Positions 6,198 through 36,371 of a stretch of 37,604 nt of DNA are shown here, piece after piece (the first letter of the stretch is position 1; each line of letters starts with the position of its first letter). Origin of the DNA: an uncultured Gammaproteobacteria bacterium (GTDB lineage Bacteria > Pseudomonadota > Gammaproteobacteria > GCA-002705445 > GCA-002716945); assembly GCA_913048065.1 (NCBI GenBank), contig CAJWVG010000008.1, positions 1-37,604 of the forward strand, written 5' to 3'. The notes below the pieces were generated by a model. The model worked only from the letters and a program-made list of their open reading frames with translations, did not search any database and was not told where the DNA came from. The translations under genes and the position numbers were made by a program.

Positions 6198-7123
6198 TGA
6201 GCAACTATTGTGTTTTATTTCCTGGGCAAGGCTCGCAAAATAGCGAAATGCTAGACTCATATTCTTCAAATAATGTATTCAATGATACTATTGCCGAAGC
6301 CTCAGCTATATTGGGCTATGACTTGTCTGAGATTATTAAAAATGAAGATAAACTTAATAATACATTATATACTCAGCCAATTATGGTGGCAGTGTCAATT
6401 GCGATATGGAGAGTTTGGCAGCAAAAAGTAGATAAATTACCCAGTTTTTCAGCAGGGCATAGTCTCGGTGAATACACAGCTCTGGTATCAAGTGGAATTA
6501 TTTCTTTCGAAGACTGTCTGAAACTAGTGAAAATCCGAGCTAAAGCTATGTCAGAAGCAATGAATAGTGTAGATGGTGGTATGGCAGCTGTAATAGGATT
6601 GAGTTCAGAGGAAATATCTGACGTTTGCAATGAATTATCTGATGATTCACAAGTCATACAGCCTGTGAATTTTAATTCAGAAAATCAAATTGTAGTAGGT
6701 GGACATATGAGTGTTTTGCAAAAGTCCATTGAAGCTTTCAAGAAAAAAGGAGCAAAAATTGTAAAAATACTGCCCGTTAGCATTGCCGCTCATACTTCAC
6801 TTATGAATAAATGTTCAGATATTTTATATAAAGAATTGATAAATATCGATTTAAAAGACAGTATATTTCCTCTTGTTCATAATATTGACGGTACTTCTAA
6901 AAGCAGTAAAGATGATATAATTGATGCAGTATGTAAACAAGTACATAGTCCGGTTATGTGGACGGATACCATTAATAACATTGGTAAATTAGATATCAGT
7001 GTTTTTATTGAAATTGGTCCCGGGAATGTGCTGACTGGTCTAAATAAAAGAATATTAAAAGAGATTCCTACTATATCGATATCGGATTTAAAGAATATAG
7101 ATCAAGCATTGGAGTTATTATAA
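6197..7123 (+). CDS. fabD: FabD, malonyl-CoA:ACP transacylase
   Basis: FabD loads malonyl groups from CoA onto acyl carrier protein for fatty-acid elongation. The sequence opens with the family motif PGQGSQ. It carries the nucleophile Ser in the elbow GHSLGEYTAL (about residue 90) and the catalytic His in AAHTSLM. The 308 residues are normal. The start is GTG at 6197, overlapping the dapB stop by one base. An ATG start would cut into the PGQGSQ motif, so GTG is the better choice. The fabG start overlaps its stop (TAATG), giving a coupled fabD-fabG pair. Confidence 0.97.
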   Translation: MSNYCVLFPGQGSQNSEMLDSYSSNNVFNDTIAEASAILGYDLSEIIKNEDKLNNTLYTQPIMVAVSIAIWRVWQQKVDKLPSFSAGHSLGEYTALVSSGIISFEDCLKLVKIRAKAMSEAMNSVDGGMAAVIGLSSEEISDVCNELSDDSQVIQPVNFNSENQIVVGGHMSVLQKSIEAFKKKGAKIVKILPVSIAAHTSLMNKCSDILYKELINIDLKDSIFPLVHNIDGTSKSSKDDIIDAVCKQVHSPVMWTDTINNIGKLDISVFIEIGPGNVLTGLNKRILKEIPTISISDLKNIDQALELL

Positions 7124-7860
7124 TGTCAGATACTAAAATTGCGCTTGTAACAGGAGCAAACAGGGGAATAGGCCATGAGATTTTAAAATCCTTAGCATCT
7201 CATGGTTATGTGGTTGTAGGAACATCAAGGTCAAGCGAGGGAGTCGATATCATTGAAAATACCATAAAAGATCATAAAACTGAGGGTTTCGGAGCTGTAT
7301 TTGATGTAAAAGACAAAGATGCATTATTAGATTTAAATAATAAAATAAAAGAAAAGTTCGGTGGCGTCTCTATTTTAGTGAATAATGCAGGCATCACAAA
7401 GGATAATCTTCTAATAAGAATGAGCGAAGAAGAATGGTCTGATGTGGTTGATACAAACCTAACCTCAATATATCGCATTACAAAAGAATTCGTTAAAGAT
7501 ATGATGAAAGCCCGATTTGGTAGAGTCATCAATATAGGTTCTGTTGTAGGTGTTAGCGGAAACGCTGGCCAAACAAACTATTCAGCAGCTAAATCTGGCC
7601 TGCTAGGGTTCAGCAAATCCCTTGCTAAAGAAGTAGCAAGTCGAAATATCACGGTAAATACCATATCACCTGGTTTTATTGATACCGATATGACAGAAAA
7701 ATTAAAAGATGAGCAAAAACAACAGTTAATAAATGCCATTCCGCTCGGAAGAATGGGATCTGCTGAAGAATTAGCAAAGGTTGTATGTTTTTTAGCGTCT
7801 GAAGATGCATCATATATAACCGGTGAAAATATTAATGTAAATGGTGGGTTATATATGTGA
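7123..7860 (+). CDS. fabG: FabG, 3-oxoacyl-ACP reductase
   Basis: FabG is the NADPH-dependent short-chain dehydrogenase that reduces 3-oxoacyl-ACP in fatty-acid synthesis. The glycine-rich cofactor loop is GANRGIGHEI, the NNAGI motif is present, and the catalytic Ser-Tyr-Lys are visible in NIGSVVG and YSAAKSG. The C-terminal GENINVNGGLYM is typical. The 245 residues are the standard length. Its start overlaps the fabD stop by one base. A 73-base gap to acpP follows, the longest gap in this rightward gene series. Confidence 0.97.
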   Translation: MSDTKIALVTGANRGIGHEILKSLASHGYVVVGTSRSSEGVDIIENTIKDHKTEGFGAVFDVKDKDALLDLNNKIKEKFGGVSILVNNAGITKDNLLIRMSEEEWSDVVDTNLTSIYRITKEFVKDMMKARFGRVINIGSVVGVSGNAGQTNYSAAKSGLLGFSKSLAKEVASRNITVNTISPGFIDTDMTEKLKDEQKQQLINAIPLGRMGSAEELAKVVCFLASEDASYITGENINVNGGLYM

Positions 7861-16771: not shown

Positions 16772-18715
16772 CTATTTATGTGAATTTCTCCAATAATTAA
16801 GAGATTTAGCTAAAAGCGCAATTGTAACTACATAATTATATATAATAAATGGCACTACAGGTAAAAGTAATCTTGAAAACTCAAATTGTGCAGCGAAAAC
16901 TATAAATGAACCGTAGTATAAGGGAATTAAGGCAATTAAGATGTTATTTCGCATCAATGTTAAATCTTTAATAAGAATAATAGATCCCAATATTGCAAGG
17001 AAAGCAAATAAATACCAGAGATTAAGTAGGACAAAATAGATAGTCTGGAAATGTACCGATATATATATGGGAATAATGGGCTCAGTATAGATTTGATTAC
17101 TAACCCCTATTCCAGTTTTTAAAGGTGAATAACCAGACATCCCAAGCAAAGTTAAGGCGCTTTGGCTAATATAAAGCGTAGGCATTGCAAGTGCGATCTC
17201 AGTGATAGAATCAATTTGGGGATGCTGAATGTATTTTTTGGTAGAATTATCAAATTTCCATACGAAAGGTAGCAAGAATCTTTTGTATGACCAATTGTCA
17301 GACTGTGACGACATATAACTTTCACCTATATTTCTTAGTTGATTTTCGACACACTTTGTTATAAATATCAGTTGTTTATCCTTGTTATTTGATGAATTTG
17401 ATAAGCATTTTATTTTGGTTTCGCCACTTAACCGATAAGAATCTAAAAGAAAAACATCGGTTAACAGGTTTGCAAGAAACTCGGTCAATTTTTTTTGATC
17501 ATTATTCTCAAGTTTTGAGTAGCTACTATGTAGTGTTTTCTCAAGTTGCTCGTATGTCATAGTATTATTAGAGTTACGGAGCTTAGATAGCAACATTTCT
17601 TTACTCTTATGAAAATCACCGGCATATGGTGTAAATGTGGATTTAAGTACAATGTTTTCAGTATCACTTCTAAAATGTGGTTTTAACCATGTTATTGATG
17701 TGAATAATTCAGATCTTTTATGAGGTGGTACACTTTTTATATATGATTTGTAAATATCATCATAAAGTTCTAGAGCATTTTCGCTTAACTTTCCCCTTAT
17801 GTTTTGTGACATGCTTTCATTAAAGTATCCATAATGAACTAAATTGTAAGCCATATGATAATTTTTTACCCTGGACTTCATGCCGTATTCTTTTAAATTA
17901 TAGGACGATATCAAAGAAGTTGTAATAATGACTACAAGAGACATACTTGCAATCGTTAAAAAACGATTCTCTTTGATAAATAAACCTATAAGAATAAATA
18001 AAGGCAGCATATATAAGGTGGATTCTCTACAAAGCGACAATAAGAATACAGAAATATTCAGTATAATTATATGTTTATAATTATTTGAACTCATTTGAGT
18101 AAATAAAGTATAGATAGTGTATACAAATAACACAATAAATAAAGAATCAACTCTTAACAGTAGTTGTATCATATTTAGTGGCATAAATAATAAAACAAGA
18201 AAAGATGTGATTAATGAAATTAGCTGATTTCTATTTATTAGATAAATAATTTTATATACATAGCCTACTGTCAAACTACCCAACAAGATATTAAAATATG
18301 TTAGAAATACATTATAATTATTCGTCAATAAAGTAACAAAGTAAGCCATGTATGAATATAATTTATATTGATTAAATTCGCCATTTACAAAGATTTGATT
18401 AATATAATCAGAAATATCCTCGGTGATAATATTAAATTTTAAAAGGAGAATTTTGTATATAAATGAGATCAATATAACATAATAAAATACTAAAATAGAA
18501 GAACTTTGATTTAGAGAACTATCTTTTTGAGCAAAATATTTTTGAATAATAGAATATATTATGATAGATATAATAAGAATACTAATAATGGAATATTTAT
18601 CAGTCTGTATCAAAAATAGCTGTCCAGCATAGAGCGAAGGAGCTGCAAAAAACTTATTTAATAATAATATTATGAATATGGATCCTAGACAAACTAATCC
18701 AAACAATAATGACAT
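16772..18715 (-). CDS. Large polytopic membrane protein, GT-C glycosyltransferase-like
   Basis: This 647-residue membrane protein has about 8-9 hydrophobic segments in its first 270 residues, a soluble region of about 250 residues (roughly 275-530), and further segments at the C terminus. The first outer loop contains KFNIITEDISDY, an acidic pair where GT-C transferases carry their catalytic Asp/Glu. An Arg-Glu pair (LCRESTLYMLPLF) is placed like the conserved RxE of GT39/ArnT-like proteins. These are resemblances of architecture, not a firm family match. It follows the DprE1-like, GtrA and UbiA genes. A good working guess is that it transfers the lipid-linked pentose onto a glycan in the periplasm. 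The 20-base gap to the DprE1-like gene supports co-transcription. Confidence 0.6.
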   Translation of the reverse strand: MSLLFGLVCLGSIFIILLLNKFFAAPSLYAGQLFLIQTDKYSIISILIISIIIYSIIQKYFAQKDSSLNQSSSILVFYYVILISFIYKILLLKFNIITEDISDYINQIFVNGEFNQYKLYSYMAYFVTLLTNNYNVFLTYFNILLGSLTVGYVYKIIYLINRNQLISLITSFLVLLFMPLNMIQLLLRVDSLFIVLFVYTIYTLFTQMSSNNYKHIIILNISVFLLSLCRESTLYMLPLFILIGLFIKENRFLTIASMSLVVIITTSLISSYNLKEYGMKSRVKNYHMAYNLVHYGYFNESMSQNIRGKLSENALELYDDIYKSYIKSVPPHKRSELFTSITWLKPHFRSDTENIVLKSTFTPYAGDFHKSKEMLLSKLRNSNNTMTYEQLEKTLHSSYSKLENNDQKKLTEFLANLLTDVFLLDSYRLSGETKIKCLSNSSNNKDKQLIFITKCVENQLRNIGESYMSSQSDNWSYKRFLLPFVWKFDNSTKKYIQHPQIDSITEIALAMPTLYISQSALTLLGMSGYSPLKTGIGVSNQIYTEPIIPIYISVHFQTIYFVLLNLWYLFAFLAILGSIILIKDLTLMRNNILIALIPLYYGSFIVFAAQFEFSRLLLPVVPFIIYNYVVTIALLAKSLNYWRNSHK

Positions 18716-18735
18716 TATTAGTTTTTTATTAATAA

Positions 18736-20028
18736 TTATATTTTTACTCTTTTTGATTGTAGAGATTGAAACTTCTTATTCATTTGATATTTTTCTCTAA
18801 TATTTCTGAATTGATTAATTTTGCTATAATTCATCTCAAAATCTTCTTTATTGATACGAACATCTTTACTTAAATATATTCTGCCTTTATATTTTAAAAC
18901 TATTTTATCAAGTTTTTTTAAAACATCATAAAGGCTCTTTGATAATTTGAAATCAATAGCGAGAGAATAACCTTTGAGAGGAAAAGAAAGATAATTCTCA
19001 TTTTCTTCACCATATAATTTTAAAACAGCAAGGAATGAAAATAATCCCTCTGATGCTATAAATTTCAATATTTCATTCATACCCTTATAACTTTGTTCTT
19101 TAGGTAGTATAAATTGATATTGAATGAATCCATTTTTTCCATATAAATTATTCCAATTGTTGAGCCCATCTAGTGGATAAAAAAATCGATCGAAGCTAAG
19201 CTTTGATTTTTTAATTTTTTTAAACTGTAAATTATAATATAAGAAATTAAATATCTTGACTGTGTATTTGTTAATTAACAGAGATGGCGTCCAACTTGGA
19301 ATACTGATCTTACTTGAGCATGGTACATAAGACAAATCTCCATCTGTTGAGAAATCTCCTATTGATACCAGCCCTCTTCCTATGTCAATATCTTGTGCAG
19401 ACGTATCTAACCATGCAACTGAGTATTTATACAATGCTTTACTCTCAAAGATATCGAAAGTTTCTTGTAGATTATTGGTTTTTATAGATATTGTATCTAT
19501 ATTTTTTGAATTAATTTTCATTAATGAGATTTTTGCGTCTAGAATCACTCCAGTTAACCCCATCCCACCACAAGAAGCTAGAAATAACTCATCTCTTTTT
19601 TTACAATTTTCAACTCTTCCATTAGATAGCATTAAATTAAAACTTAGGACAGATTCACTAAAACAACCATCAATGTGATGATTTTTGCCATGTACATCGC
19701 TTGCGATAGCTCCACCTAATGTAATATATTTGGAACCTGGGGTTACCTTCAGAAACCAGCCTTTTGGGACTATTATTTTAAGTATATCTTTCAATAATAT
19801 TCCTGACTGTGCTTCAAGTATCCCCTCCTCTTCATTGAATGAAATTACAGAATTATAATCTATAGATTTCACTATAGTTTTATTAATTCCACTATCGCCA
19901 TAACTCCTACCATTGCCATGTATTATAAATTCGTCAGTATCTAAAATAGTATTTTTTAGATCAGAAGAGCTTTTTAACTCAAGCTCATTACATTTAATAT
20001 TGGGATGAGAACCCCAGGAGTATTTCAT
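18736..20028 (-). CDS. DprE1-like FAD-dependent oxidase (polyprenylphosphoryl-ribose 2-oxidase family)
   Basis: In mycobacteria DprE1 oxidises decaprenylphosphoryl-ribose at C2, and DprE2 then reduces the ketone to the arabinose form. Here the FAD loop is HGNGRSYGDSG (Tyr43 matches Mtb Tyr60). The block VTPGSKYITLGGAIASDVHGKNHH follows in two parts, with His113 and Lys115 corresponding to Mtb His132 and Lys134. The C-terminal YLSKDVR contains Lys388, matching Mtb Lys418. The position of Mtb Cys387, the benzothiazinone target, appears as Ala357. Length (430) is slightly below the 461 of Mtb. It lies after gtrA and the UbiA-type gene. The identity is good; whether the product is ribose- or arabinose-type is unresolved because no DprE2 is visible. 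Confidence 0.88.
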   Translation of the reverse strand: MKYSWGSHPNIKCNELELKSSSDLKNTILDTDEFIIHGNGRSYGDSGINKTIVKSIDYNSVISFNEEEGILEAQSGILLKDILKIIVPKGWFLKVTPGSKYITLGGAIASDVHGKNHHIDGCFSESVLSFNLMLSNGRVENCKKRDELFLASCGGMGLTGVILDAKISLMKINSKNIDTISIKTNNLQETFDIFESKALYKYSVAWLDTSAQDIDIGRGLVSIGDFSTDGDLSYVPCSSKISIPSWTPSLLINKYTVKIFNFLYYNLQFKKIKKSKLSFDRFFYPLDGLNNWNNLYGKNGFIQYQFILPKEQSYKGMNEILKFIASEGLFSFLAVLKLYGEENENYLSFPLKGYSLAIDFKLSKSLYDVLKKLDKIVLKYKGRIYLSKDVRINKEDFEMNYSKINQFRNIREKYQMNKKFQSLQSKRVKI

Positions 20029-20034
20029 AGTATA

Positions 20035-20424
20035 TTACTTAAAAACAAACTTTTTATCTAAAACATACTTTACTGTATAGCCGATAGTAAGTCCAATTAT
20101 AGCACCTATGTATTTTGCTACATTATTATCAAATAAAATATAGAATGAATATTCAAAAATCCAGAATATCAATGTTGTAAAGATTCCAGTAAATGTATAT
20201 AAAGCAAAGTTTTTGCTATAGCCATAGATGTTATTTATATTATATTTAAAAATATATACCCTATCCAATGAATATTTTGAAATGAGTCCTAAGGTCGTTC
20301 CTACGAGTATTGCAACATATATGGTATACTCATTGTCATGTAATGAAAAAACCAGATACTGTGAAAATATATTAAGAGTCATCGCAATTAATGAAAAATA
20401 TATATATAAAAAAACTTTTTCCAT
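20035..20424 (-). CDS. GtrA family membrane protein
   Basis: GtrA proteins are small four-helix membrane proteins that help move or present polyprenyl-linked sugars; in mycobacteria one (Rv3789) accompanies DprE1. This one is 129 residues from the ATG at 20424, which overlaps the UbiA stop as TAATG; an upstream ATG at 20463 is less likely because it would overlap by 40 bases. Visible family marks are GTTLGLISKYSLDRVYIF and the C-terminal GYTVKYVLDKKFVF, repeats of the KY-D-x-F pattern. Four hydrophobic segments are present. It lies between the UbiA-type synthase and the DprE1-like oxidase, consistent with a lipid-linked pentose pathway. Confidence 0.9.
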   Translation of the reverse strand: MEKVFLYIYFSLIAMTLNIFSQYLVFSLHDNEYTIYVAILVGTTLGLISKYSLDRVYIFKYNINNIYGYSKNFALYTFTGIFTTLIFWIFEYSFYILFDNNVAKYIGAIIGLTIGYTVKYVLDKKFVFK

Positions 20425-21287
20425 TACATAGCCTTTGCTATATAGTAAAATGATAATAACCAAGCTATTATCGTTGTTTGTAAAATTCTATCTGTTAAAA
20501 AAATTTTTGTTGGATCTCCACTATGATTTTTTACTAGTGTTAAATATAAATATCTATACAAGCCTATAATAACAAATATTATAGTCATATAAATTTTATC
20601 AGTAAATTTTATTATGACCTCGGGAGATAAAGTAAATAATAGATAAATTAATATTATTAGAACAGATAGTAGTTTTAAACTTTGATTTAGTATTTCAATA
20701 TTATAAAATCTTATATTCCTTCGTGTCTCCTTACCATCCAATAATAACTGTATATCTTCTCTTCTCTTAGCTAGAGCTATAAATATAGAGAGGATAAATG
20801 TTAGCGCTATAATCCAATTGGTTATCATTTCATTTATTGCATATCCCCCGACAAAGAGTCTTAGAACAAAACCGAAGGCTATAATTATTATATCAATGAT
20901 AGGAATATATTTAAGCTTAGCTGAATAGAGAATATTAATAGAAAGATAAATTATTAGCACATAAAATATATTAATATTAAGGATATAACTCCCCATTAAG
21001 GCTATTATTGCTAGTAAAATCGATAGAAAATACGCGGTATTTGTAGTTATTAAATTACTTGCAATAGGCCGTATCTTCTTATTTGGGTGTAATACATCTT
21101 CCTTGACATCAAATATATCATTTAAAATATATACAGAACTTGCCATCAATGAAAATAATAAAAATGCAAGTAAAGCACTAATAAAATTTGTAAAAGTAAA
21201 CTGAAATGAGAAAAATAATGGTGCAAAAATAAAAAAATTCTTTATATATTGTTCTATTCTAAATAATTTTATAATATTTTTAATCAT
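20424..21287 (-). CDS. UbiA-family prenyltransferase, DPPR-synthase type (polyprenyl-phosphate phosphoribosyltransferase)
   Basis: This 287-residue polytopic enzyme matches the Rv3806c branch of the UbiA superfamily, which joins phosphoribosyl diphosphate to polyprenyl phosphate. The first Asp-rich motif is NDIFDVKEDVLHPNKKIRPIA (about residues 56-76 with N56, D57, D60 and D64). The HP-K-RPIA end distinguishes it from quinone or heme UbiA. A second motif region includes YSAKLKYIPIID, and AKRREDI follows. Eight or nine membrane helices are expected. Its start overlaps tupA by eight bases and its stop overlaps gtrA. With the DprE1-like gene it defines a lipid-linked pentose pathway. The family call is strong; the exact polyprenyl chain length is unknown. 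Confidence 0.87.
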   Translation of the reverse strand: MIKNIIKLFRIEQYIKNFFIFAPLFFSFQFTFTNFISALLAFLLFSLMASSVYILNDIFDVKEDVLHPNKKIRPIASNLITTNTAYFLSILLAIIALMGSYILNINIFYVLIIYLSINILYSAKLKYIPIIDIIIIAFGFVLRLFVGGYAINEMITNWIIALTFILSIFIALAKRREDIQLLLDGKETRRNIRFYNIEILNQSLKLLSVLIILIYLLFTLSPEVIIKFTDKIYMTIIFVIIGLYRYLYLTLVKNHSGDPTKIFLTDRILQTTIIAWLLSFYYIAKAM

Positions 21288-22098
21288 AACTAGTCTGATA
21301 ATTAGGGATGAATAATCTATCTCCCTTATAGTTGTACATGCCTATCAATGATTGACCTTCAGTGGACAAAATCCATTTATAAAAGTTATCGATATTAACA
21401 TTTTTGGCATTAGGACACTTTCTGGGATTAAGTCTAATCAAACCGTATTGATTAAACATTAAAGGGTCGCCTTCGAAGAGAATTTTATGATTTCCTTTAT
21501 TTTTAAATTTTAACCATGTTGCTCTATCAGTATATGTATATGCATTTTTTCCTATTGCTATGTTGATAGTAGAGCCCATACCTTGTCCTGATTCTAAGTA
21601 CCAAATTCCGCTATATTGTTTTGGCTCAATATTTATCATTTTCCATATATTCTTTTCCGATAGATCTGTTCCGCTACTATCGCCTCTAGAAATGAATAAA
21701 TTATTAGAGTTATTAAATTTTTGAAAAACATCTATTACTTTGTCATAAGATTCGATATTAGCAGGATCATTATATGGACCAATAATTACAAAATCATTAT
21801 ACATTAGATTGTAACGTGACTGACCATAGCCATCTTTTACAAACTTTTTTTCAAGCTTTGGAGCATGAGTTAATAAGATATCACCATCGCAATTTTTTGC
21901 AGCTTCAAGTGCATGACCAGTTCCAAGTGCTATCACATGTATTCGAATATTATATTTTTTTTCAAAGTTTGGTAATAAATATTCAAGTAAGCCAGAATCT
22001 CTTGTTGATGTTGTTGATAATAATCTTAGGCTAGTATTATCAGCACTAAACGATATATTGCAAAATAAAATAATTATTAAAAAAAACTTAAACTTCAT
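21280..22098 (-). CDS. tupA: TupA, tungstate ABC transporter substrate-binding protein
   Basis: This is a periplasmic binding protein of the TupA/WtpA-like group that captures tungstate. It has a signal peptide (MKFKFFLIIILFCNISFSA) and the family blocks STTSTRDSGLLEYLLP, VIALGTGHALEAA, DILLTHAP and YNDFVIIGPYNDPANI. Later blocks are RGDSSGTDLSEK, WYLESGQGMG and the TYTDRATWL segment. Length (272) fits. It is the third transporter gene in the order tupB, tupC, tupA, each start overlapping the previous stop (ATGA here). Oxyanion specificity (tungstate rather than molybdate) is predicted from the motifs, not tested. The embedding in a glycan operon is unusual. Confidence 0.93.
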   Translation of the reverse strand: MKFKFFLIIILFCNISFSADNTSLRLLSTTSTRDSGLLEYLLPNFEKKYNIRIHVIALGTGHALEAAKNCDGDILLTHAPKLEKKFVKDGYGQSRYNLMYNDFVIIGPYNDPANIESYDKVIDVFQKFNNSNNLFISRGDSSGTDLSEKNIWKMINIEPKQYSGIWYLESGQGMGSTINIAIGKNAYTYTDRATWLKFKNKGNHKILFEGDPLMFNQYGLIRLNPRKCPNAKNVNIDNFYKWILSTEGQSLIGMYNYKGDRLFIPNYQTSYD

Positions 22099-22724
22099 AT
22101 AATCATACCGTTCTGCATAAAAATTGGTGTGTCTGTAAATAACTTTATTTGTTTGTCACTTTGACATGTAATAATAATTTTTATATCTCTCGATATATCG
22201 AGTAAGATATCATTAATAAGTTTTTCATTTTTATAATCCAAATTACTCGTAGGTTCATCTAAAAAAAGTAATGATGGTTTTGTAATAATTGCTCTAATGA
22301 AAGCTATTAACTGCTGTTCACCCGATGATAGTTTCTTTGCAGGAGTTTCATAAAGATGTAGTATTTCTAATTTTCTTAAAAGTTCATTAGTGAGCAGCTC
22401 TTTCTTTTCTAGCTGTTCTTCTTGACTGTTTAAAGCGAAAAGGAGATTGTCCTTAACAGTCCGATTTAAGAATATTGGTTTTTGAAAAATAAAACTAGAA
22501 TTTGAGAGATAATTTTTTTCTGGATAAGTAATTTTGCCACTATCCGGGTGTGATATTCCAGCGATAATCTTCAATAATGTTGATTTACCGGCACCATTAT
22601 GCCCTGTTATAACGGATATCCCTTTTTTATATATCTCTAAATCAATATTATTTAATACATCCTTACCATTTATATTTTTAGAAACGTTATGAATAGATAT
22701 AATTTTACACATATTTTTCATCAC
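22095..22724 (-). CDS. tupC: TupC-like ABC transporter ATP-binding protein
   Basis: This is the ATPase of the tungstate transporter. The Walker A motif is GHNGAGKSTL (41-50), the signature is LSSGEQQ (132-138), and Walker B is SLLFLDEPTSNLD (151-163). The switch His normally found in a TH(D/E) motif about 25-30 residues later appears to be Cys187 in IIITCQSD, so the H-loop residue may be missing. At 209 residues it is short, lacking the C-terminal extensions of other importers. The gene overlaps tupB by 20 bases and tupA by four. Partners are fixed by this context. The function as an ATPase is inferred, with the switch-His loss as a caution. Confidence 0.88.
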   Translation of the reverse strand: MMKNMCKIISIHNVSKNINGKDVLNNIDLEIYKKGISVITGHNGAGKSTLLKIIAGISHPDSGKITYPEKNYLSNSSFIFQKPIFLNRTVKDNLLFALNSQEEQLEKKELLTNELLRKLEILHLYETPAKKLSSGEQQLIAFIRAIITKPSLLFLDEPTSNLDYKNEKLINDILLDISRDIKIIITCQSDKQIKLFTDTPIFMQNGMII

Positions 22725-23406
22725 CAGATATCTTTATCATATAAAGCAATATATTAATTATCAAAGCTATAAGAATTAATGTGATGCCAAGGCTAAGAGC
22801 CATTGCCAAGTTTCCGCGTGATGTCTCAAGTACAATACCAGTAGTCATTGTACGTGTAAGATGTGCAATATTTCCACCAACAATAATGATAGCACCAACT
22901 TCTGATAGTGCTCTACCAAACCCAACTAAGAAATTAATTATTAGTGAGTATCTAGCCTCCCAAACTAAAGTCATTAATCTTCTTGATATTGATAAATGCA
23001 TTGATGTTAGAAGGTCATTATATTCTGTATAATATTTATCCAAAGTTTCTTTTGATAATGCAATTAAAATAGGAGTTACGAGAATTGTCTGTGCAATTAT
23101 CATAGCATTAACTGAGTATAATAGATTGTATGATCCTAGAATTCCTTGATTAGATAGAATAATGTACAAAATCAAACCTACGGCAACAGGAGGTAATGCC
23201 ATTAATGTATTTACTAAGATAATTATAAAAGGTTTACCAAAAAATCTTTTAATAGATAGTATTGATGCAATTGGTATCGAGATAAAAAAAGATACGATGA
23301 TTGCAGTAATAGATACTTGTAGAGAAACTAACATAATATATAAGTATTCAGAGTTTAAATTATAAATATTATTTAATGATGAAATAAATATTGAATGGAT
23401 ATCCAT
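22705..23406 (-). CDS. tupB: TupB-like ABC transporter permease
   Basis: This is the membrane permease of the tungstate transporter. The 233 residues hold about five or six hydrophobic segments. The conserved ABC-importer loop is present in GFGRALSEVGAIIIVGGNI, which contacts the ATPase, and is followed by LTRTMTTGIVLETSRGN as in TupB/ModB-like permeases. It starts with ATG at 23406, overlapping the stop of the glycerophosphotransferase gene by one base (TAATG), so it is co-transcribed with the glycan genes. The specificity follows from the neighbouring binding protein. Confidence 0.92.
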   Translation of the reverse strand: MDIHSIFISSLNNIYNLNSEYLYIMLVSLQVSITAIIVSFFISIPIASILSIKRFFGKPFIIILVNTLMALPPVAVGLILYIILSNQGILGSYNLLYSVNAMIIAQTILVTPILIALSKETLDKYYTEYNDLLTSMHLSISRRLMTLVWEARYSLIINFLVGFGRALSEVGAIIIVGGNIAHLTRTMTTGIVLETSRGNLAMALSLGITLILIALIINILLYMIKISGDEKYV

Positions 23407-25519: not shown

Positions 25520-26416
25520 TTATTGATAGTTTTTTTGGCAGTATTTTATCAACATATCAATTTCTTGATTATGATTGATTGATGGGGAGCAATTCACGGC
25601 ATTTAAATTATTTCGTATTTGGTATGCAGGGTATTTCTCTTGTCCATTAGACAGGACAAGTTGTACCTGTTTTTTGTATAAGATATATATCCTATCTATA
25701 AGATTATTAAGTATATTTTTAACCTTTTCAGTATTACCGGAAGTAACATTATACATCTGATATCTATGATTAAAATCAGCATTGATAAAATTGTTAATGG
25801 TCTCAATAACTGAGGAAATAGGTATAAAATCCTTGTATTCCTCTCCATTAGATCTGAGCACAATTTTGTTATCAATAAATGCCTGTTTGCACGCATACAT
25901 CACCACTAAACTCCAGCATTGTGATTCTCTTAAAACAGGATATCCATATCCATTTGATATTCGAAGCGAGCATGAAGATAAATCTGACGATGAAATTTCT
26001 TCTAAATAATCTTCAATTTCTTTTTTAACTAAAGAATAATTATCATCTATTGACAAGCTAGATTGTTCAGTAATATTTCTATTTGGACGACTGCCATATA
26101 CTCTAGTAGATGATGTGAAGATAAATTTTTTTACATTACACTCTATAGCATTTTCTATTAGTATTTTTGTATCATTCAAGTATTTCTCTCTAATTTTTTT
26201 ATCATCGCACTGTTTATCATTCGGGCTTGCGGTATGTATGATAATATCTTGAGAAAGCAGGTCTTTAGAATCTAGCTTATTAGCAGTGATTATTTTCACC
26301 TTCTCGATAGGGCTGATTTTTTTTCTGCTTGCCAAGGTTACGTTGCACATATTTTTAATATATAAAGCAAGACGACCTGCAATTAATCCACTGCCACCAG
26401 TAATAAGAACATTCAT
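25520..26416 (-). CDS. NAD-dependent epimerase/dehydratase (extended SDR), substrate unknown
   Basis: This nucleotide-sugar short-chain dehydrogenase has 298 residues. The glycine-rich loop is ITGGSGLIAGRLA. Ser/Thr of TSSTRVYGS and the Tyr-Lys pair of YSLVKKEIE form the catalytic site. RISNGYGYP and the later KDFIPISSVIE segments bind substrate as in this superfamily. It directly follows a WecA/WbpL-like transferase, and in Pseudomonas and Rhizobium an SDR reductase (WbpV/WreQ) sits beside the initiating transferase. A 4-keto-reductase role is therefore plausible. It could also act on the CDP-6-deoxyhexose made by the rfbF/rfbG products. No decisive motif separates these options. Confidence 0.85.
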   Translation of the reverse strand: MNVLITGGSGLIAGRLALYIKNMCNVTLASRKKISPIEKVKIITANKLDSKDLLSQDIIIHTASPNDKQCDDKKIREKYLNDTKILIENAIECNVKKFIFTSSTRVYGSRPNRNITEQSSLSIDDNYSLVKKEIEDYLEEISSSDLSSCSLRISNGYGYPVLRESQCWSLVVMYACKQAFIDNKIVLRSNGEEYKDFIPISSVIETINNFINADFNHRYQMYNVTSGNTEKVKNILNNLIDRIYILYKKQVQLVLSNGQEKYPAYQIRNNLNAVNCSPSINHNQEIDMLIKYCQKNYQ

Positions 26417-29606: not shown

Positions 29607-30671
29607 TTATAGATCTGAAAACTCCATTATTTGTTGTTCTGTATACTGCGAATGTTTTGCTGTAGGATTCTTGTAATACGATTCATACCATTTACTTGTC
29701 CATTCAGATGTTAAATTAAAGTCCAATTTTGTATTGAATTTCAATAATCTATAGGATTTATTACAATCTAAACTTAAAAGATTAGCTTCATGTAAATCAT
29801 TGCTAGTAGATTGAATCGACCATTTAGAACCATCAAAAAATGTAGAAAGTTGAGATACGAGGTTTTCAACTGTATAGGAGTTTGATTCTTTTGGTCCAAA
29901 ATTAAAAGATTCACCATTAATTTTTGGGTTTTCAGACAATTTTACGGCCAATCTTAGGTATCCATTAATTGGTTCTAATACATGCTGCCATGGTCTTGTT
30001 GCATATGGATTTCTAAGTATGACATTTTCCTTTTTAGCCCATGATTTCATACAGTCAGGAACTATTCTATCTATAGCCCAATCACCCCCTCCTATTACAT
30101 TCCCTGCGCGTGCTGAAGAAACTCTAATATTAGAAGCTTTTGTATTAAAAAATGCATTGCAATATCCTTTAAATATAAGTTCGGCCGAAGCTTTGGATGT
30201 ACTATATGGATCTATTCCACCGAGACGATCATTTTCTGAATAATTGACTTTTTTTTCAATGTTCTCATAGCATTTATCACTTGTAATAATTACCGCATTA
30301 CATTTATGATTTAGTATTTTTAAAGATTCAAGAATATTTAACGTCCCCACAGCATTAGACATATACGTTTTATATGGATCGGAGTAGGATTTTAATACTA
30401 ATGGTTGGGCAGCTAGATGAAAAAGATAATCAGGTTTGACTGATTTAAGTGATTGATAAACAGAGTCGAACGATGAAATGTCATATCGTTCATCTGATTT
30501 GAAATTAATATTTAATAACTCATAATGTGATGGATTGGTGGGTACATCAAGAGAAACACCATAGATATTAGCGCCAAGCAGAGATAACCATTTAGACAGC
30601 CATGAACCTTTAAAACCAGTATGACCAGTTATAAAAACATTTTTATTATTAAAATAGCTAGTATAGTCCAT
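29607..30671 (-). CDS. rfbG: RfbG, CDP-glucose 4,6-dehydratase
   Basis: RfbG (DdhB) converts CDP-glucose to CDP-4-keto-6-deoxyglucose with bound NAD. The start ITGHTGFKGSWLSKWL is the family mark, with FHLAAQPLV. TSDKCYEN carries the catalytic Thr and acid pair, and YSTSKASAE the Tyr-Lys. The RPWQHVLEP motif is conserved in this subgroup. The 354 residues match. Upstream is a PhyH gene whose stop overlaps the rfbG start (TAATG), and downstream the RmlC-like gene follows at two bases. No DdhC-type dehydratase for 3,6-dideoxy sugars is visible. Confidence 0.95.
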   Translation of the reverse strand: MDYTSYFNNKNVFITGHTGFKGSWLSKWLSLLGANIYGVSLDVPTNPSHYELLNINFKSDERYDISSFDSVYQSLKSVKPDYLFHLAAQPLVLKSYSDPYKTYMSNAVGTLNILESLKILNHKCNAVIITSDKCYENIEKKVNYSENDRLGGIDPYSTSKASAELIFKGYCNAFFNTKASNIRVSSARAGNVIGGGDWAIDRIVPDCMKSWAKKENVILRNPYATRPWQHVLEPINGYLRLAVKLSENPKINGESFNFGPKESNSYTVENLVSQLSTFFDGSKWSIQSTSNDLHEANLLSLDCNKSYRLLKFNTKLDFNLTSEWTSKWYESYYKNPTAKHSQYTEQQIMEFSDL

Positions 30672-33117: not shown

Positions 33118-35013
33118 TTAAAGTTTACCTTCCAATTTCTCCAAGCTTATCCAAAAACCCTCACCATTATTAGTATGTCCTTGCCATACCTCAGGTATAA
33201 AAGAAATATCCTGTGAATACTTATTAATAATAGGCAATAATTCATTAAAATTAATATCACCCTCGCCTATTTGCAAGCCTTCCCCATCTACACCACTGCC
33301 GTCTGATATGTGATAATGAGCAGTGAATGGAGCGATCGATTCTGTATAGTTAGCATGATTCCAGTTATATTTATTACATGCTAGAAAAGAATGAGATATA
33401 TCATGACAAAATCTAACACCTGTTTTCTTGTGAAAATCAATAATTTCAGAAACATTCATAAATAAGTTTTGATATCTCTGTCCACCAAAATGCCAAGGGT
33501 ATGGAGCCATTGTTTGAGGCAGGATTTCAACATCATTTGCATCAAGGATATCAAATGAGTTTATCAGATTTTGATAATATTTAACTTTGAGTTCATCAGG
33601 TATAAAATTATCCTTAGAAAATCCTCCACAATTTACTATTATTTTTGGCTTTGATGTAGTAGGGAAATATTTTTTCAAACTTTTTGTTACATCAATTAGT
33701 TTTTGCATATGTGTAATCGATTTGTTTCTATAATCATTATTAGGTGTACACAAATCAAGCAAATGATCATTTTCAAACAACTCTGGCGCATGAACTAAAA
33801 AACCACAATCATATTTATCTGCTAAGAAATCTCCTGGCGATTCATCCAAATCATTAAAACTCATATGAAATTCAATCAAATCTGGATTAGTAACATTTAA
33901 TAGATTATTAATATCATGGTATCTTACTGGAATTGCCCATTTTCTTTTGAATTTATAATTTTTTTTAGCTTTAATAACACTCTCATAATCCGATTTAAAG
34001 ATAGGATCCCCTTTTTTGATACACTTAATTGCTTTTTTTCCAAGTATGTTTCTCAATTTATTTGGTTGAAGTCCTTGTCCGGGACTTCTAAATATAAACA
34101 TATTTTTTTTAAATATTTCATTTTTATCAATATGAACATTTGCATATATACTTTTTGATAAATTTTCCCTATTAATTAATTCACCTTGGGTAATAACTCT
34201 ATCTTTGTCACTCCCCATGGCTTTTTCAATATGACGGATACCTTTGATTAAATATTTGAAATCTTTTTTTTCAAGACTTGCAGAATGATCTGGACCTTCC
34301 ATATCTCTATTTAATGTGATATGTCTTTCTATGATAACTGCACCCAGAGCAACAGCAGCAAGTGTTACGGCAGTTCCCCTCTCATGTCCTGAATAGCCAA
34401 TTGGCACATTATACTTCATTAACTTTTTTATATAACTTAGATTTATATCTTTAAATGGCGCTGGATATGTTGAATTACAATGTAATAATGCAAAATTTAT
34501 TTTATTTTTTTTATTATTTATATATCTTACAACATCATCGATTTCTTCTTGTTTTGACATACCCGTAGAAAGTATTAAAGGTTTATTTTTTTCACAAAGA
34601 TAATCTATCAAAGCATAATTAGTCATATCAGCGGATGCAATCTTATAAGCAGGTACATCGAGTTTTTCCAATAGATCCACGCTTTTAATATCCCAAGGTG
34701 TACATAAGAAAAGTATATTTCTATCTTTGCAATAAAGAGATATTTTCCTATATTCATCAAATGTTAATTCAAATTTCTTTAATAAACCTAAAGTATATTG
34801 TGTAGATAAATCACCTTTTGATACTTTCAAAGCATCTTGTGAGTATAATTCATCTAAACATCTTATCTGAAATTTAACGCAGTCAGCACCAGCTTCAATG
34901 GCAATATCAATTAGTTTGATAGCATTATCATACACACCATTATGATTCATACCTATTTCCGCAATTACAAATCTTTTCTGATTATCACCTATAATATATT
35001 TATCAATTATCAT
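33118..35013 (-). CDS. NeuB-like nonulosonate synthase with SAF domain, fused to a TIM-barrel sugar isomerase domain
   Basis: This 631-residue protein has three domains. Residues about 1-280 are a NeuB PEP-condensing barrel: IAEIGMNHNG, ADCVKFQ, LCTPWDIKSVDLLE, LILSTGMSKQEE, LLHCNSTYPAP, GYSGHERG and ERHITLNRDMEGPDHSAS. Residues about 288-350 are the SAF/antifreeze-like domain (MFIFRSPGQGLQPN). Residues about 360-631 are a xylose-isomerase-like/AP-endonuclease-2 barrel with likely metal ligands Glu (VEILPQTMAP), Asp (CHDISHS), His (HYHISDGSG) and Glu (FIPEVWQGH). The synthase makes a nonulosonic acid from PEP and a six-carbon sugar; the second barrel may isomerise or epimerise its substrate or product. 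The ATG at 35013 overlaps the kinase stop (ATGA); an ATG at 35034 adds seven residues. Neither has a well-spaced ribosome site. Confidence 0.9.
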   Translation of the reverse strand: MIIDKYIIGDNQKRFVIAEIGMNHNGVYDNAIKLIDIAIEAGADCVKFQIRCLDELYSQDALKVSKGDLSTQYTLGLLKKFELTFDEYRKISLYCKDRNILFLCTPWDIKSVDLLEKLDVPAYKIASADMTNYALIDYLCEKNKPLILSTGMSKQEEIDDVVRYINNKKNKINFALLHCNSTYPAPFKDINLSYIKKLMKYNVPIGYSGHERGTAVTLAAVALGAVIIERHITLNRDMEGPDHSASLEKKDFKYLIKGIRHIEKAMGSDKDRVITQGELINRENLSKSIYANVHIDKNEIFKKNMFIFRSPGQGLQPNKLRNILGKKAIKCIKKGDPIFKSDYESVIKAKKNYKFKRKWAIPVRYHDINNLLNVTNPDLIEFHMSFNDLDESPGDFLADKYDCGFLVHAPELFENDHLLDLCTPNNDYRNKSITHMQKLIDVTKSLKKYFPTTSKPKIIVNCGGFSKDNFIPDELKVKYYQNLINSFDILDANDVEILPQTMAPYPWHFGGQRYQNLFMNVSEIIDFHKKTGVRFCHDISHSFLACNKYNWNHANYTESIAPFTAHYHISDGSGVDGEGLQIGEGDINFNELLPIINKYSQDISFIPEVWQGHTNNGEGFWISLEKLEGKL

Positions 35014-36371
35014 GCTTTTTTCTTTGTAATCCATCTCCTCAAACCGTTATTATCAAAAGTTATAGTTTCAATCTGTAGCCCTTTTTTAGCTAAAGCATTC
35101 ATTAATTTAATCTTACTATACGTGGGAACATAGAAGAGAAAGTAACCGCCTGATCCAGCACCCAGCAACTTACCACCCAAAGCACCATGTTTAAGGCCAT
35201 AATCATAAATACTATCAAGGAATTTATTAGAAATTTTTGATGAGAATTTCTTCTTAATCTCCCAAGCTTTTCCTAGTAATTGTCCAAAATTATCTATTTG
35301 GCCTTTTAGGAGCTTCGATTTCATTTCATGAGCTATATCTTTTGAAATTTCAGCATATTTTTTTTGTTTAAGATTATTCATTTTATTTTTCTGGTCATTA
35401 TGGATTTTTCCAGAATCATGATTGACACCTGTATAACATAGTATCAAAGAATCCTCTAATTCATTTTTAATATCATTGCTAATCCTTAATGGGTTAACAA
35501 TATTTTCATTATCTTTAAACTCGATATAATTAAAGCCACCAAATACAGTTGCATACTGATCTTGCCAACCACCTGACAGATTCATGACAACACGTTCAGC
35601 ATGGAACGCCAATTCAGCAATTTCATAGTCATTAAACTTATTTTCTTTGAAATTATTAAATGCACCAATAATGGCGCTTAAAAGAACTGCCGAGCCACCA
35701 AGTCCAGAGCCAGGCGGAACATCACTATAAGTTATTAAGTCAAACCCAAAATCAGGTTTTAAAATTTCTATAACTGATTTTATGAGGTCAAGCTCACCAT
35801 TTAATTTTATATCGCTTAACTGATTAAATTCTAATTTTATATTTAAGTCATTTGATAATATGGATATTTTTTTATCATTTCTTTTTTCTAATATTGCATG
35901 TGTAAATTTATTTATTGTAGTATTTAATACAACACCTTTTTCTTTATAAAAATATGTAGTCAAATCAGTACCGCCACCAGCGAAGCTAATTCTTACAGGT
36001 GATTTTGCTTTAGATATTACTTTCTCTTTTTCATTCCAAATGATATTCTTCTTTGAGACAACTGTAATGAGTTTTTTCTTTTTATTAAGAATTGGTATTA
36101 TCCTTATCCTAGTATCAAGAAGTTTTAATATATTTTCTTTTGTTGCATTTTCTTCATATAAAAAAACAAAATCTTTATTAATAAATTTACTTATTTTGAA
36201 ATTCAAGTTTTTTTCTTTTAAAAGTACTCTTCTAATATCTCCATCTGTTGCAACACCTATGACTACACCTTTATCTTCAACAAATACTGCTCCGATTTTA
36301 TTTCTATCAATCTGTTCTAGGACTGATTCAAGCTTTTCATTTTTATTTACTAAATATTTATTTGTTTTCAT
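35010..36371 (-). CDS. HddA-like GHMP sugar kinase with N-terminal CBS pair
   Basis: Residues 1-115 are a CBS pair with the GVATDGDIRRVLL mark of the CBS modules found on sugar nucleotidyltransferases such as PtmE. Residues about 120-453 are a GHMP kinase close to D-glycero-D-manno-heptose-7-phosphate kinase (HddA): PVRISFAGGGTDL, the ATP loop DVPPGSGLGGSAVLLSA (about 217-233) and GGWQDQYATVFGGFNYIEF. The kinase probably phosphorylates C1 of a sugar phosphate for the neighbouring HddC-like enzyme. The CBS pair may sense an adenosine nucleotide. No GmhA or GmhB is in the window, so a heptose substrate is not proven. It overlaps the nucleotidyltransferase gene by 14 bases. Confidence 0.88.
   Translation of the reverse strand: MKTNKYLVNKNEKLESVLEQIDRNKIGAVFVEDKGVVIGVATDGDIRRVLLKEKNLNFKISKFINKDFVFLYEENATKENILKLLDTRIRIIPILNKKKKLITVVSKKNIIWNEKEKVISKAKSPVRISFAGGGTDLTTYFYKEKGVVLNTTINKFTHAILEKRNDKKISILSNDLNIKLEFNQLSDIKLNGELDLIKSVIEILKPDFGFDLITYSDVPPGSGLGGSAVLLSAIIGAFNNFKENKFNDYEIAELAFHAERVVMNLSGGWQDQYATVFGGFNYIEFKDNENIVNPLRISNDIKNELEDSLILCYTGVNHDSGKIHNDQKNKMNNLKQKKYAEISKDIAHEMKSKLLKGQIDNFGQLLGKAWEIKKKFSSKISNKFLDSIYDYGLKHGALGGKLLGAGSGGYFLFYVPTYSKIKLMNALAKKGLQIETITFDNNGLRRWITKKKA

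Follow-up and report, generated by a model that had tools for sequence, protein, structure and literature searches.

Can a module for a lipid-linked pentose be complete when the reductase that should follow its oxidase is absent from the gene cluster? The question is raised by the window analyzed here, a stretch of 37,604 nucleotides from an uncultured gammaproteobacterium, which spans contig C8 in full; the genome comprises 1.04 Mb in 62 contigs and has an estimated completeness of 82.6%. The preliminary description had noticed consecutive genes for a UbiA-type enzyme, a GtrA-family protein, a DprE1-like oxidase, and a GT-C-like membrane protein, and these are confirmed on the minus strand, all four as intact open frames (Table 1). 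It had also seen no DprE2, and FabG is indeed the sole classical SDR found in the 37.6-kb contig; the two further SDR-like genes, described there as extended SDRs, encode an extended epimerase and a CDP-glucose 4,6-dehydratase. The site of DprE2 in relatives is represented in the window by a 20-nt gap, which leaves no room for a remnant. The lipid-linked pentose pathway also requires removal of a 5'-phosphate, and no 5'-phosphatase of the pathway was recognized in the window or beside the four genes, a point not raised in the preliminary description.

Table 1. Positions of the genes and loci discussed in the text and the basis of their assignment
Feature	Location	Strand	Basis
UbiA, DPPR-synthase type (polyprenyl-P phosphoribosyltransferase), unfused, without HAD domain	window 20424..21287	-	NF008977, PDB 8j8j, motif in translation
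GtrA-family membrane protein, proposed flippase/accessory for lipid-linked pentose	window 20035..20463	-	NF037976
DprE1-type FAD oxidase (predicted polyprenyl-P-ribose 2'-oxidase)	window 18736..20028	-	NF053785, PDB DprE1
20-nt gap, DprE1 stop to GT-C start	window 18716..18735		sequence
GT-C-like glycosyltransferase, proposed user of lipid-linked pentose outside the cytoplasmic membrane	window 16772..18715	-	AlphaFold model, fold matches
DprE2-type SDR	G000:C22:3004-3735	-	PDB, NCBIfam, tree
HAD-IB phosphatase, DFDGT motif, directly after the C22 SDR	C22 2415-3002	-	motif, homology
FabG	window 7123-7860		
Epimerase (extended SDR)	window 25520-26416		
CDP-glucose 4,6-dehydratase (extended SDR)	window 29607-30671		
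Tungstate-type ABC transporter (TupA/B/C-like)	window 21280-23406		
NeuB-type synthase + xylose-isomerase-like TIM barrel	window 33118-35034		
GHMP kinase + CBS domain	window 35010-37053		
Loci of GT-C homologues in G007, G021	L134:8455-11820, L137:9890-14718		
DprE1 + DprE2 as one ORF	L297:7977-9998:+ (673 aa), L311:7980-9986:+ (668 aa)		
Core DprE2-type SDR + HAD pair	L015:2415-3735:-, L133:6739-8080:-, L136:4379-5697:+		
DprE1 + class III aminotransferase	L250:5597-8488:+, L251:2844-5714:-, L249:5354-8130:+, L252:5535-8319:-		

The top three model matches of the window UbiA are all decaprenyl-phosphate phosphoribosyltransferase or its HAD-fused form, with 229.9 bits against NF008977 of NCBIfam, where the cut-off of 234 is missed by 4 bits. 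Among PDB entries, the DPPR synthase of Mycobacterium tuberculosis matches best (8j8j; E = 3.3e-36). The NDxxDxxxD motif, read from the translation as N56-D57-xx-D60-xxx-D64, has the same spacing as residues N247, D248, D251, and D255 of the Citrobacter enzyme, which were mutated by Kelly et al. (PMC11127046). By closest family and motif, the window enzyme is of the DPPR-synthase type, and its use of PRPP is predicted. The GtrA protein scores 138 bits against NF037976, above the curated cut-off of 50, and its gene has the same position in Sulfurimonas L265 and in G015 (L135), a genome of the same family and another genus.

The oxidase scores 348 bits against NF053785 and about 40 bits or less against every other FAD oxidase model; like all scored relatives, it does not reach the equivalog cut-off of 500. 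In the PDB, it strongly matched DprE1 structures only (E = 7e-66). Residues H132, K367, Q334, Q336, and K418 of M. tuberculosis DprE1 are conserved as H113, K337, Q303, Q305, and K388, and C387, the target cysteine of benzothiazinones, corresponds to A357. The DprE1 oxidase is a drug target in tuberculosis. When we checked whether the window protein might group with unrelated FAD oxidases, it grouped with DprE1 instead, and with FAD-binding and active-site residues kept, its sequence is that of a DprE1-type oxidase. It is highly improbable that the two enzymes, oxidase and UbiA, are unconnected with a lipid-linked pentose and are, for example, an aldonolactone oxidase and a quinone-type prenyltransferase. 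Both do score under the NCBIfam equivalog cut-offs, but the scores against models of unrelated enzymes are far lower, the general UbiA family is matched with much higher scores by the two further UbiA genes of the genome, the active-site residues are conserved, and the gene order is common to complete DprE1-DprE2 operons. Of the pentose chemistry proposed earlier for a DPPR-type UbiA and a DprE1-type oxidase, the family assignments hold by models, PDB matches, and motif, and the reactions themselves are predicted.

The fourth gene encodes a membrane protein of 647 aa that matched no family in Pfam or NCBIfam and, in a profile search, no PDB sequence. Its AlphaFold model (pTM 0.68, mean pLDDT 68.4) matched mostly GT-C folds in the PDB (PglB, STT3, PMT, ArnT, and EmbA), with probabilities of up to 1.00 and E values of 0.38 or worse; a fold search against viral proteins returned nothing useful. 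By its modeled fold, with these weak E values, the protein resembles GT-C enzymes. Within the sample of relatives, its homologues are confined to the same family. Those of G007 and G021 have a DPM-like GT2 and a TVP38-like membrane protein nearby but no DprE1, a setting in keeping with a family of transferases that use lipid-P-sugars.

A genome-wide DprE2 search, in which classical SDRs were collected via PF00106 (13 matches), gave one clear DprE2-type SDR, located on contig C22 and paired with a HAD phosphatase. No other such SDR was found in the assembled part of the genome. This pair supports an alternative already offered in the preliminary description, that DprE2 is encoded elsewhere. The best PDB match of the C22 SDR is M. 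tuberculosis DprE2 (21gq_C, from a DprE1-DprE2 entry; E = 9e-21, with the next match at 2e-12). In NCBIfam, the DprE2 model comes second with 128 bits, after the uncharacterized SDR model PRK07102 with 249 bits. Residues N107, S135, Y148, and K152 are invariant in the alignment. In the phylogenetic tree, the SDRs of the family group with the cluster DprE2 of G015 (one clade, support 100/99), and this clade lies within the DprE1-adjacent SDRs. Because of this nesting and the usual linkage of this SDR type with DprE1, we regard the C22 SDR, by its sequence, as DprE2 by descent, and the extended SDRs in the window operon are not needed as reductase. FabG, a pteridine-reductase-like SDR, the 4,6-dehydratases, and the CDP-glucose 4,6-dehydratase were rejected as DprE2, as were further SDRs with best models other than DprE2. 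There is no linkage of the C22 SDR to DprE1. The pair is on a separate contig in housekeeping-type chromosomal surroundings, and its other neighbors, judged from translations, are guaB, guaA, arsC-like, DsrC-like, lexA, and dinB-like genes. The HAD protein is homologous to HAD genes adjoining DprE1-SDR in G038, G215, G084, and many named genomes, and it fits a candidate phosphoribose phosphatase like the PRP domain described in PMC11127046.

We surveyed the linkage of these genes in 369 genomes of the class, counting DprE1 at E <= 1e-30. DprE1 was present in 69 genomes, and a C22 SDR homologue was found in 62 of these; it lies within 500 bp of DprE1 in 52 genomes, on the same contig in 6, and on other contigs in 4 (beside contig ends in 3). 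The 7 genomes without such a homologue have a diverged SDR beside DprE1 (n = 2), a contig end (n = 1), or a class III aminotransferase (n = 4). Among named genomes, the SDR was found at 78 of 80 DprE1 loci, and of the two loci lacking it, one is truncated by a contig end. Consecutive DprE1, SDR, and HAD genes are a common order, seen in G038, G084, G215, and the Campylobacterales locus L266, among others. HAD is encoded as a separate protein alongside 28 of 45 short UbiA proteins and none of 26 long ones; the two long UbiA proteins that were scanned are both HAD-UbiA fusions. Since a separate HAD goes with short and never with long UbiA, the C22 HAD would complement an unfused UbiA like that of the window. 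In G015, a run of Ns and the UbiA C terminus are followed by GtrA, DprE1, DprE2, and GT-C, so that DprE2 sits exactly at the 20-nt gap of the window and the rest of the gene order is the same. In two of the named-genome loci, L297 and L311, from a Flavobacteriales and a Sphingobacteriia genome, DprE1 and DprE2 form one ORF. Such a fusion was also suspected in G160 (L234, 675 aa) but was dropped, as the N-terminal part was not recognizable as DprE1.

The place of this SDR type beside DprE1, the common DprE1-SDR-HAD order, and the DprE2 of G015 at the gap make polyprenyl-P-arabinofuranose the likeliest product. We consider it fairly probable, judging from the genes, that it comes from a split module in which the window carries the accessory half of the pentofuranose pathway and the C22 DprE2 and phosphatase act in trans; the lipid-linked pentose module is probably complete and split in two. 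UbiA would transfer phosphoribose from PRPP to polyprenyl phosphate, the C22 HAD phosphatase would remove the 5'-phosphate, DprE1 would oxidize polyprenyl-P-ribose at C2, and the C22 SDR would convert the 2'-keto intermediate to polyprenyl-P-D-arabinofuranose. GtrA may help the lipid-linked arabinofuranose to cross the membrane, and on the outer side of the cytoplasmic membrane the GT-C protein would attach arabinofuranose to a surface glycan. The family identity of UbiA, GtrA, DprE1, the C22 SDR, and the HAD protein, together with the usual linkage of SDR and HAD with DprE1 and UbiA, is established at the sequence level; from these we infer the substrates, the direction, the acceptor, and the service of the C22 pair to the window module. 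Arabinose on the surface glycan is plausible. A split module would mean that unlinked genes can provide a step that an operon lacks, and it would extend the DprE1/DprE2-type pentofuranose pathway to a lineage whose genomes measure about 1 Mb.

The C22 pair is also found where DprE1 is not. The SDR is present with an adjoining HAD in 5 of 6 other members of the genus and also in most of genus g6, and G015 retains this core pair in addition to its cluster DprE2. In the relatives carrying the core pair, G015 excepted, neither DprE1 nor DPPR synthase was found, and one of these genomes is 99% complete and consists of 3 contigs. The other FAD_binding_4 proteins of these relatives have a length of about 280 to 290 aa, which is the size of MurB, and their one or two UbiA proteins are of a different, higher-scoring kind. 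The dN/dS values of the core SDR and HAD are about 0.1 to 0.15, indicating purifying selection, also in genomes without DprE1 and DPPR synthase. The conservation of a core pair under such selection argues for some function independent of DprE1. An orphan DprE2-phosphatase pair is thus revealed, and its role without DprE1 is now testable. A PGxxxTxMT loop is typical of DprE1-linked SDRs, with T183, M185, and T186 in 90 to 100% of them, and is kept in the cluster copy of G015. The C22 SDR keeps P178 and G179 and has T183 changed to S, M185 to K, and T186 to G; M185 is absent from the commonest residues of the 13 core copies. Because of this departure from the loop, we call the C22 SDR a DprE2 descendant.

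With its changed loop, the pair may serve another job, and the window module would then be without a reductase. A second, dedicated DprE2 could in that case lie in the unassembled ~17% of the genome, an arrangement we regard as quite improbable. G015, with its core and cluster copies, is an example of it, the genome is just 82.6% complete, and the loop of the core copies has diverged; but a dedicated copy is mostly beside DprE1, the corresponding site in the window is empty within an unbroken contig, and the assembled part yields the one SDR only. It is also doubtful that the module has no functioning DprE2, with the 2'-keto-pentose used directly or by another enzyme, the module decaying, or ribose being transferred. 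Use of the 2-keto product is conceivable because the loop of the C22 SDR has diverged and the SDR is kept in relatives without DprE1, and DprE1 lineages without DprE2 do exist, namely the four class genomes with a fused or adjacent class III aminotransferase. Against this, the four window genes are intact, and a search for an aminotransferase that could partner the window DprE1 found none in the cluster, the best match in the genome being only 34% identical and on another contig. A further reading, unlikely in our estimate, is that the DprE2-phosphatase pair of the family, its substrate loop remodeled, has turned into a core function that needs neither DprE1 nor DPPR synthase. The window DprE1 module, without its own reductase, would then have recruited this altered enzyme to make some pentose different from D-arabinose, or it would use the 2'-keto sugar as it is. 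Use of the C22 SDR as DprE2 in this species appears likely, and a split arabinofuranose module is the reading we prefer.

The kind of system is already known, and the window would be a member of the pentofuranose three-component systems, one whose genes are distributed in an unusual way. Extracytoplasmic pentofuranose addition was described by Kelly et al. (2024; PMC11127046) and involves a polyprenyl-P-ribose synthase together with a flippase and a GT-C enzyme; the arabinofuranose loci carry DprE1/E2 homologues, and the epimerase genes decide the pentose. Candidates for lipid-P-ribose synthase, flippase, and GT-C are all present in the window at the gene level. The module is like the Citrobacter youngae O1/O2 systems in having candidates for a UbiA-family, PRPP-dependent polyprenyl-P-ribose synthase, a phosphatase, a flippase, and a GT-C enzyme. 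It differs in that UbiA and the phosphatase are separate proteins, GtrA takes the place of MATE as candidate flippase, the GT-C-like protein is outside any Pfam or NCBIfam family, and DprE2 and phosphatase are unlinked. With the mycobacterial decaprenylphosphoryl-arabinose pathway (Rv3806c, DprE1, and DprE2), in which the keto intermediate is reduced with NADH or NADPH (PMC9993113), it shares relatives of DPPR synthase and DprE1 and a DprE2-type SDR. However, the phosphatase candidate here is of the HAD type, C387 of DprE1 is replaced by alanine, and the C22 SDR does not have the N-terminal docking residues of M. tuberculosis DprE2, which are likewise missing from Pseudomonas aeruginosa DprE2 (PMC9993113). 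In rhizobia, Nod factors are arabinosylated through noeCHOP, and noeC, noeH, and noeO have been described as relatives of mycobacterial arabinose-donor genes (PMC2443382, PMC5080398). Compared by description, mycobacterial-type donor genes and a separate transferase, noeP, are common features, whereas the noe operon is linked and its acceptor is the Nod factor. In P. paraeruginosa, pilins are arabinosylated. The nearest named DprE1 is that of Sulfurimonas sp. L265, where UbiA, GtrA, and DprE1 have the same order (49, 45, and 58% identical), but DprE2 follows directly after DprE1, and then a PMT/ArnT-like GT-C and HAD, in one operon. Since the window DprE1 has a higher identity with the Sulfurimonas protein than with the one from G015 (50%), its sequence suggests that the module was acquired separately from that of G015 and lost DprE2 later.

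In the four class genomes without a DprE2-type SDR, a class III PLP aminotransferase is fused to DprE1 (963 and 956 aa) or adjacent to it, and a DPPR-type UbiA is nearby in two of the four. This combination suggests the formation of a lipid-linked 2-amino-2-deoxy-pentofuranose from the keto product of DprE1. Our literature search on DprE1 paired with an aminotransferase found no paper.

Other genes of the window have features of their own. A tungstate-type ABC transporter lies within the run of glycan genes, and its last gene overlaps the start of UbiA by 8 bases. A NeuB-type sialic-acid-like synthase and a xylose-isomerase-like TIM barrel are joined in one protein, and a heptose-7-phosphate-kinase-like GHMP kinase is fused to a CBS domain, with an HddC-like nucleotidyltransferase adjoining.
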